From contig PAQY01000022.1 in assembly GCA_002709955.1 (NCBI GenBank), positions 1 through 64,000 of the forward strand: DNA of 64,000 nucleotides, in the 5' to 3' direction. A program made the translations under genes and the position numbers. Positions 42,813 through 44,387 of the stretch are shown here, piece after piece (positions within the stretch are counted from its first letter, which is position 1; every line of letters starts with the position of its first letter). The DNA is from Rhodospirillaceae bacterium (GTDB lineage Bacteria > Pseudomonadota > Alphaproteobacteria > UBA8366 > Aestuariispiraceae). The notes beneath the pieces are model-generated. The model searched no databases, was not told the origin of the DNA, and saw only the letters and a program-made list of their open reading frames with translations.

Positions 42813-43364
42813 TTATTCGACGATGGCGAGGTGGATGGAGAGTATCGCGGTGTCACCCGGCACCGCCAGCGCGAGGCCGGGACCCGTATCCCAAATTGCG
42901 GTTTCCCCGGCGCGTATCTCCTGCTGATCCAGTTTCCCTGCCCCGGAAAGGCAATATACCGCATTCAGACCTTCGGGCGGTGACAGCGCCGTATCATCGC
43001 GCAGAACCCGAACCTCCGCCTTCACGCGCAGAGGATCGAACATAACGTTGAAATCCTGGATGGGACCAGCCAGCAATTCACTGTTGATTTCCTGATCGCC
43101 GCGAAAATCAATCGGCCTTTGGGGCAAGGCCTCAATCACAGCGCCGGTCCGGCGATCTTTCAGGCGCATCCCAACACCGGCAATCACGGTCAATATACGG
43201 TGCCGGTCCGGGAAGCTGGAAAACGGACCATCCGTGCGGACATCGGCAATGCTCAGCCGCCACAAAAAACCGTCCTCATCTTCCTTAAGGGCGATTTCCC
43301 GCGTGATCCCGCCACCATTTTTCCATGGTGTTTCCTTATAATCCTGCGCTTTGAATATTTTCAT
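42813..43364 (-). CDS. HutD family protein
   Basis: A 183-residue cupin-like HutD protein. The start KIFKAQDYKETPWKNGGGITREIA is the family signature (PWxNGGG), followed by WRLSIADVRTDGPFSSFPD and the HRILTVIAGVGM strand. HutD is linked to histidine utilisation and may bind formylglutamate, but no hut genes are here. The minus-strand start is only 10 bp from the end of the 266-bp palindromic element (43375-43640), whose edge gives the AGGG before it. Expression is therefore likely to be affected by that element. Confidence 0.88.
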   Translation of the reverse strand: MKIFKAQDYKETPWKNGGGITREIALKEDEDGFLWRLSIADVRTDGPFSSFPDRHRILTVIAGVGMRLKDRRTGAVIEALPQRPIDFRGDQEINSELLAGPIQDFNVMFDPLRVKAEVRVLRDDTALSPPEGLNAVYCLSGAGKLDQQEIRAGETAIWDTGPGLALAVPGDTAILSIHLAIVE

Positions 43365-43374
43365 GCGCGAGACC

Positions 43375-43640
43375 CTAGTGTGGTGCGCGGTTATTTGGAA
43401 TCACCAGGATCCCTTTATCGGCCTGTCGGCTAGAAGAGAGCGTGCAGGCGATGTGGTTCATCGTCAAACGCTCTCGACGCCGTCCGACGGGCCGATAAAG
43501 GGACCAAAGGCGCTGTTTGCGGCGCTTCGGGCCGCGTCGCCTTCCGCTTGCGATGCCCGGCATCGCTTCGCGAAACGCTCCTAACCGGAGCACCGCAAAC
43601 AGCGTCCTGGTCGATCCCAAATAACCGCGCACCACACTAG
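43375..43640. repeat. 266-bp nested inverted-repeat element (cruciform/MITE-like)
   Basis: The outer arms 43375-43409 and 43605-43640 are complementary over about 35 bp; the first 24 bp are perfect (CTAGTGTGGTGCGCGGTTAT then TTGG). Inside are two hairpins. The first pairs 43410-43429 with 43484-43503 (19 of 20 plus a G:T) and has inner stems 43436-43443/43469-43476 and 43449-43453/43459-43463. The second pairs 43511-43530 with 43585-43604 (18 of 20), with an inner GCGATG/CATCGC stem at 43550-43566. The whole can fold as a three-way junction. A TA dinucleotide lies inside each end. No protein is encoded. Confidence 0.9.
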
Positions 43641-43733
43641 CACAGGGTTTGTCACATTTTGTAATGAAAATCGAACCCTTGCCTTCACAGACAACAGGCC
43701 CCACTTCAAGTATCAAAACCAGGAAAGATCAGC

Positions 43734-44387
43734 ATGGCACAGAAAACGGAAAGAGACTTGGACGCCGCGCTTATCGACGCGGCAATGACGCTGTTTGCAG
43801 AACGCGGCTATGCCGCTGTTCGTTTGCAGGATATCGCAGACCGTGCCGAAATGGATTTGGGCATATTGCGCCAGCGCGTCGCCAATAAGCTGGATATCCT
43901 GAAACTGTTCCTGCGCCGCCTGGACGGCGATGTGCTGGGGGAGGATGCCGGTTTCGGGCCAGAAGAAACGGTGCGCGATCGTTTGTTCGATCTGTTGATG
44001 CGGCGCTTCGATGCGCTGACTCCCTATCGCCCCGCCTTGCAGGCTGTCATGCGCGATCTGCGCAGGGATCCTGCCGCGCTTGTATGCCTTGCGCCCCATG
44101 GCATGACGGCATTGGGCTGGTATCTTGAAGCTGCGGGCACTTCTGCCGATGGACTGACAGGCGCGATGCGGATCAAGGGATTGAGTGTCGTCTGGCTGCA
44201 CTGTTTGCGGATCTGGGAAAAGGATGACAGCGACGATCTGGCAAAAACCATGAAGGCCCTGGACAAAGCACTGAGCCAGGCGGAGCGCGTCGCAACCTGG
44301 ATGCAATCAAGCCCGCTTCACCGATCCGCCCGTAACCGTCCCGACCATGATGCCGAGGCAGACCCGTCACTGGGCACGCAGCCATGA
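43734..44387 (+). CDS. TetR family transcriptional regulator
   Basis: A 217-residue TetR-type regulator. The N-terminal HTH is ALIDAAMTLFAERGYAAVRL, then QDIADRAEMDLGILRQRVAN and KLDILKLFLRR. The C-terminal ligand domain (about 60-190) is helical and contains VWLHCLRIWEKDDSDD. Its direct target is not evident; the 266-bp palindromic element lies 93 bp upstream. Its 3' end overlaps the convergent AsmA gene by 21 nt. Confidence 0.85.
   Translation: MAQKTERDLDAALIDAAMTLFAERGYAAVRLQDIADRAEMDLGILRQRVANKLDILKLFLRRLDGDVLGEDAGFGPEETVRDRLFDLLMRRFDALTPYRPALQAVMRDLRRDPAALVCLAPHGMTALGWYLEAAGTSADGLTGAMRIKGLSVVWLHCLRIWEKDDSDDLAKTMKALDKALSQAERVATWMQSSPLHRSARNRPDHDAEADPSLGTQP

Follow-up and report, generated by a model that had tools for sequence, protein, structure and literature searches.

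The nested palindrome between a hutD-like gene and a TetR-family gene in the 64,000-nucleotide stretch of DNA analyzed here (the window) is best described as a mobile element with a structured cargo: probably, a miniature inverted-repeat transposon (MITE) whose two inner hairpins are in addition under selection at the level of RNA. Bacterial MITEs are usually viewed as short-lived deletion derivatives with insides that decay quickly. Here the interior is the conserved part, recurring in 25 families and bearing a base-pairing signature that is specific to one strand.

Architecture of the element

Measured from TA to TA, the element occupies positions 43376 to 43639 and forms a palindrome on three levels. 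The short length (264 bp) and terminal inverted repeats of a MITE are both present, the outer arms (43375 to 43402 and 43613 to 43640) being 28 nt long and 96% complementary. Within them lie a first inner repeat (43410 to 43429 and 43484 to 43503; 20 nt, 95% complementary) and a second (43511 to 43530 and 43585 to 43604; 20 nt, 90% complementary). When folded as DNA, positions 43365 to 43650 reached -107.7 kcal/mol, compared with a mean of -53.9 (standard deviation, 3.5) for shuffled sequences, and none of 200 shuffles folded as well; a branched junction is predicted from one strand of the element. With a fold z score of -15.2, outer arms, and two 20-bp inner repeats, the 266-bp nested inverted repeat of the original prediction is real.

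Absent from that prediction was the relationship between the two inner hairpins, which are inverted copies of the same core; because of this, the element and its reverse complement are about 67% identical. At 94 bp each, the hairpins are convergent copies of one module, TAGGAG..GCGATG-loop-CATCGC..CGACGC. Hairpin 1 (43410 to 43503) has its sense on the plus strand, where the conserved CTAGAAG (TAGGAG) side of the internal loop falls at 43430 to 43436, the nearly invariant stem-loop P3 (GCGATG..CATCG) at 43448 to 43463, and the conserved CGACGC side of the internal loop at 43475 to 43480. A 7-bp spacer (43504 to 43510) separates it from hairpin 2 (43511 to 43604), which has its sense, its CGACGC motif (43534 to 43539), and its TAGGAG motif (43578 to 43583) on the minus strand. 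The covariance model of the module (R1) scored 98.4 bits at 43408 to 43506 on the plus strand and 96.6 bits at 43508 to 43606 on the minus strand. Out to the hairpins, the left terminal inverted repeat spans 43376 to 43409 (plus) and the right 43605 to 43639 (minus), and the TA dinucleotides of the target-site duplication, assigned from the single TA at the empty sites of other copies, are at 43376 to 43377 and 43638 to 43639.

The earlier statement that no reading frame accounts for this DNA holds for transposase-sized open reading frames, of which the element has none. It is less secure in one respect: an 87-codon stop-free frame runs across the element in 10 of the 11 near full-length copies of the window's own genome, and for this frame a coding role may exist.

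Copies, mobility, and target-site duplication

In the window's own genome (4.23 Mb, 24 contigs), 11 copies are near full length, with 87 to 100% identity, and nine of these are exactly 264 bp. Five further copies are cut by contig ends; in addition there are two internal deletion derivatives, of 145 and 139 bp, and 10 loci with bare arms, in one case with both arms joined. These bare outer arms (L048 to L057) are about 17 to 35 bp long, nearly all lack a partner within 3.5 kb, and are possible scars of excision or deletion.

Empty sites were sought by joining the flanks of 13 copies around one TA and searching five congeners, which gave 13 aligned pairs. Gap-free empty sites with a single TA were found for L002, L009, and L010 (four comparisons), and the site for L007 had a single TA with a 1-nt gap beside it. 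Two pairs for L005 showed 2-nt differences, with AA at the right end, and those for L003 and L008 differed by 2 to 3 nt. Among the remaining pairs, that for L017 was diverged, that for L001 contained another element, and two were occupied sites in the congener G004. Many dispersed copies in one genome, together with single-TA empty sites at four loci in sisters, therefore identify the element as a MITE that duplicates a TA target, as had been suspected from the TA dinucleotides at its ends. That it is a non-autonomous, TA-targeting DNA transposon we regard as practically certain.

By a rough end test, 31 of 47 elements had a TA close to each end. A stricter TA rule accepted 43, of which 41 measured 260 to 286 bp and the others 145 bp (L017) and 252 bp (L091); elements of other genera, L091 excepted, measured 261 to 286 bp, a narrow length range that is partly built in because, outside the window's genome, TA was sought only 24 to 48 bp beyond the hairpins. 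Outer arms vary by genus, with starts such as TAGTG, TAGAG, TAGGAG, TACCAAGG, and TAGCCC, among others. At five loci (L013 [1675], L122, L130, L160, and L176), one inner hairpin lies the other way round from the remainder of the element, which points to recombination between the arms of that hairpin.

Candidate transposases

A TA duplication, seen at the four empty loci (one with the 1-nt gap beside its TA), is typical of the Tc1/mariner/IS630 superfamily. The only PF13358 match in the window's genome belongs to one insertion sequence (IS) (L060, 1397 to 2466, contig C7), whose ends, CTAGAGCRTGATGATWTTAGACGG, differ from those of the element; the transposase gene of this IS is broken into two frames that overlap. 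Five of 12 relatives had a PF13358 match, and two genomes with many element copies (G005 and G022) had none. PF13340, of the IS5/IS427 type, was matched in 6 of 11 genomes.

Comparing 20 IS loci with 12 arms, with a tolerance of 3 mismatches per 13 nt, produced matches most of which look like chance. At the IS630 locus L239, the first 13 nt of the Marivibrio-type arm (G012) recur at both ends, with 1 and 0 mismatches, and these ends are also the ends of the IS copy in the window's genome. Two loci of the IS5/IS427 type have TA-flanked TAGG.. ends that agree with arms from other genera at 10 and 10 of 13 positions: L319 (1403 to 2255) with arm G012b and L326 (262 to 1104) with arm G335. Locus L331 in G004 looks like the same IS as L326. 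No IS with the GTGTGGTGCGCG ends of the window's element was found among the 20 IS loci tested or in the PF13358 IS of its genome, and when only the arms were searched for (five types, six genomes; 14 candidates in two genomes unscored), inspection by eye revealed no pair at IS distance. Nor did the 73 of 117 loci that were examined contain a plus-then-minus hairpin pair 200 to 4,000 bp apart.

The TA duplication and the match of L239 to the Marivibrio-type arm lead us to lean, with somewhat better than even confidence, toward a transposase of the IS630 type rather than another TA-targeting enzyme. The type is uncertain because the IS5/IS427-type loci L319 and L326 resemble arms at both ends; different genera may use different transposases.

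A conserved hairpin module

Read in the TAGGAG sense, both hairpins align as one module. Its first stem, P1 (about 20 bp), is variable, as is the next, P2; the TAGGAG/CGACGC internal loop separates these two, and another loop lies between P2 and P3 (GCGATG..CATCGC), which is nearly invariant. A MAFFT alignment of 26 diverse hairpins showed compensatory change on both sides of 27 of the 35 predicted pairs, a number reached by 1 of 500 shuffled controls (mean, 21.2). Paired cells made up 92.2%, compared with 69.7% in shuffled alignments and at most 43.4% when the structure was slid, although the structure was predicted from the alignment on which it was tested, which gives it an advantage over slid versions. 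The two-sided changes all fall within P1 (19 pairs) and P2 (8 pairs); P3 has none and thus reveals little about pairing. Compensatory change beyond controls, a trait of conserved structured RNA, is accordingly present in this 26-hairpin alignment.

The hairpins occur in pairs. In a first set, all 47 close hairpin pairs were convergent, a count that included only one copy from the window's genome (L001) and so left out the flipped L013; in a second set, 46 of 50 pairs were convergent and four were flipped. Some metagenome-assembled genomes (MAGs) have one or two extra GC-rich hairpins of about 65 bp between the conserved two (L142, L158, L193, L198, L125, and L186).

Rfam gave no match at an E value of 1 or below in positions 43100 to 43900, and five matches across 18 element loci, none of them on an element. 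One locus (L105) has a suhB/mmgR small RNA (RF00519, 63.8 bits) at 2680 to 2754, about 1 kb from an element.

Strand polarity of mismatched pairs

Were a duplex cruciform under selection, a single transition would leave a G.T mismatch in one strand and an A.C mismatch in its complement, and a bias between them would not be expected. On the TAGGAG strand of 112 hairpins in the first set, we counted 275 G.U and 41 A.C mismatches, after dropping four antisense rows and removing identical rows from 127. Clustering at 70% left 40 hairpins and a ratio of 89 to 11, and left and right hairpins behaved alike (113 to 13 and 122 to 20, respectively). A second set that partly overlaps the first (135 hairpins, after five antisense rows were dropped from 140) gave 387 to 67. 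Subtracting the 14 rows identical to rows of the first set gave 339 to 60 (121 rows), and also removing four shared genomes gave 297 to 54 (105 rows).

Hairpins found by motif only, paired in a register based on Watson-Crick pairs only and restricted to 16-nt inner arms, gave 59 to 7 among 38 distinct sequences (12 to 3 in the window's genome, 47 to 4 elsewhere); an earlier motif-only count, with arms that overran the hairpin into junction bases, had given 50 to 33 (P = 0.08). The outer arms of 40 elements had no bias, with 45 G.U and 50 A.C. The sense strand was also the better RNA fold in 96 of 103 cases.

That G.U exceeds A.C where the TAGGAG strand is read argues for selection on a single strand, for which RNA is the simplest form, and not on a duplex cruciform. 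Because the two hairpins point in opposite directions, the bias is not accounted for by replication or by a transcript passing through both; strand-biased mutation would suffice only where most transcription ended within the element. From these sequence patterns, we consider it probable that the hairpins are under RNA-level selection. The original prediction had placed a structured RNA beside a MITE as competing explanations. As far as the inner hairpins are concerned, class-wide covariation and strand-polar G.U pairs support the RNA, which is a part of the MITE and not an alternative to it.

The strongest competitor to a MITE with RNA-selected hairpins is a MITE with no RNA function at all, its palindromes kept perfect by template switching or hairpin-templated repair. 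Processing of DNA hairpins does occur, as seen from hairpin flips (L013 and 4 of the 50 close pairs), deletion derivatives, and solo arms, the last two being common. Such processing predicts neither unpaired motifs that are fixed across a class nor G.U in excess of A.C on the motif strand of both oppositely oriented hairpins with no such excess in the outer arms, and we think it unlikely to be the whole explanation.

Slightly less likely still is a single-stranded DNA hairpin read on one strand and used in movement or replication. Integron attC sites and the REP/IS200 ends are single-stranded DNA hairpins recognized on one strand, and G.T is the better mismatch in single-stranded DNA as well. 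Strand polarity fits this explanation, and since the sense strand was also the better fold with DNA parameters (91 of 103), it retains a small share of our confidence. When the element moves, however, TA is duplicated where the outer arms end, the signature of duplex cut-and-paste, and RNA is the simpler reading.

A duplex cruciform serving as a protein target, raised in the original prediction and compatible with the branched junction into which one strand folds, is very improbable, as the two strands of a cruciform are equal and should carry G.T and A.C in balance.

Distribution across the class

By BLAST, 13 of 39 genomes, the element's own included, had matches, which in distant genomes lay mostly on the inner hairpins and not on the outer arms; one match in G005 spanned nearly the whole element at 68%. 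R1 detected the module in the order (20 of 43 genomes), in the class (38 of 385 genomes, which represent 25 families and 31 of the 277 genera), and in a sample of the phylum (12 of 398 genomes, two of these outside the class); all three counts include the element's own genome and, because stricter filters were applied, are lower bounds. A single genome had up to 92 matches, and match counts include some antisense cross-matches. Of the matches outside the class, L313 folds into the full architecture and L311 does not resemble the module. Hosts among the matches listed include Marivibrio halodurans (Rhodospirillales) and many Rhodospirillales MAGs.

Five elements were compared with plasmids: L306 matched one Agrobacterium plasmid, and L107, L101, L313, and L307 had no match. 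The window's element likewise had no plasmid match, the arm 19-mer and the core pattern had no exact match in viral contigs, and the one element tried against phages (L038) had none.

We tentatively propose, as a possibility that we rate below even, that this distribution reflects a class-wide mobile RNA module, in which an ancient hairpin RNA, kept as convergent pairs by selection on RNA folding, travels between outer ends that are specific to each genus. If so, what lasts in the element would be its RNA, and the transposon ends would be its changeable part, either swapped between transposon types or evolving quickly; the RNA would serve the element or host transcripts in a way that has not been described. 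The element would offer a testable case of a structured RNA persisting as the cargo of a parasitic DNA element.

Comparison with known repeat families

Several families of small bacterial repeats share some of these features. In the portions of PMC2229807 that treat them, RUP of Streptococcus pneumoniae and Correia/NEMIS of Neisseria are small noncoding MITEs with terminal inverted repeats, TA ends, and structured transcripts, and IS630-Spn1 is the proposed mover of RUP. Like them, the present element is small and has TA ends and terminal inverted repeats, its structured transcript being a prediction. The stem-loops of RUP and NEMIS form by pairing of the two ends, and each family is confined to one genus or species (PMC2229807, same portions), whereas here an outer stem is combined with two convergent hairpins, the core is class-wide, and the arms vary between genera.

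CIR, an intergenic repeat of Caulobacter, Brucella, and other alphaproteobacteria, has an RNA drawn as two hairpin arms and a linker, is about 110 bp long, lacks terminal inverted repeats, and has GANTC at the hairpin loop, according to the corresponding part of PMC2229807. Both families are alphaproteobacterial and have two hairpin arms; by that description, the present element is set apart by its 264-bp length, its long terminal repeats, and loops that on inspection contain no GANTC. The length, the terminal pairing, and the loops speak against identity with CIR as described there.

REP sequences, as given in part of PMC3733652, are 20 to 40 bp long with one stem of 5 to 13 bp and a terminal tag. 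The same text describes REP/BIME palindromes as often head-to-head dimers, CGTC types as predominant in alphaproteobacteria, and the CGTC dimers of H. neapolitanus as lying inside a 41-bp palindrome. The element shares the head-to-head arrangement of palindromes, but unlike CGTC or GTAG REPs it has hairpins of about 94 bp with three stems and fixed internal loops, and the position of its GTAG is not conserved. Identity with these REPs is ruled against by the 94-bp three-stem units and the unconserved GTAG position. In the portions of PMC10969869 and PMC2267715 consulted, nothing similar is named, and we recognized no description of this element family in searches of open-licence papers.

A possible role in transcripts

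Transposase type, transcription, and RNA function are inferred in the scheme that follows. An enzyme supplied in trans, most likely a Tc1/mariner/IS630-type transposase, would cut at the outer arms, and the element would be inserted at TA, often within CTAG. Its cargo, the hairpin module in two convergent copies, would act as RNA, and transcription from either side would meet a sense (TAGGAG) hairpin first, an order that favors a role independent of direction. In read-through transcripts, the hairpin would fold and either cap and protect them or be cut by an RNase, and capping, protection, or cutting would keep insertions beside genes tolerable. Whether the hairpin serves as a direction-independent RNA 3' end or insulator is conjectural, and we put it at roughly one chance in three. 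A classical terminator is not indicated, as by eye no U tract follows the hairpins. With its size and clear definition, the family is suited to asking why palindromic repeats occupy the ends of bacterial genes.

Genomic context

Neighboring genes, called by a simple ORF rule for 46 elements, were tandem in 24, convergent in 16, and divergent in 6. The TAG at an element end closed a frame open for at least 100 codons in 25 of 64 cases, on both sides in 6 of 29 elements, and insertion at such a frame-closing TAG leaves the length of the frame unchanged. This frequency exceeds that of TAG in the flanks (30 of 296; P = 1.4e-7). Compared with flanking CTAG sites (7 of 25; P = 0.46) it is not raised, and a preference for CTAG targets can therefore explain the association with stop codons.

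In the window, the element is flanked by the hutD-like gene (42813 to 43364, minus strand; a 183-amino-acid ORF matching PF05962 with an E value of 6.5e-43) and the TetR-family gene (43734 to 44387, plus strand; PF00440, E value of 3.6e-8), at distances of 11 and 94 bp, within a base of the 10 and 93 bp reported earlier. The congener G004 has the window's element with the same flank (147 bases at 100% on contig C23). At this CTAG, the sister species G002 has a different element, of about 95 bp (CTAGAGCA..TGCTCTAG), so a fixed role of the palindrome in controlling hutD and tetR is not supported. Dedicated control of these two genes, proposed from the position of the element between them, is the least credible explanation of all, with copies at many unrelated loci, only 6 of 46 elements between divergent genes, and an unrelated element in G002 at the same CTAG.

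The CTAGAGCA..TGCTCTAG element of G002 represents a second small TA-flanked family (contig C92, L274, reverse strand, approximately 1677 to 1777 of the reversed locus), and a similar element lies beside a solo arm in the window's own genome (L056, approximately 1727 to 1840).
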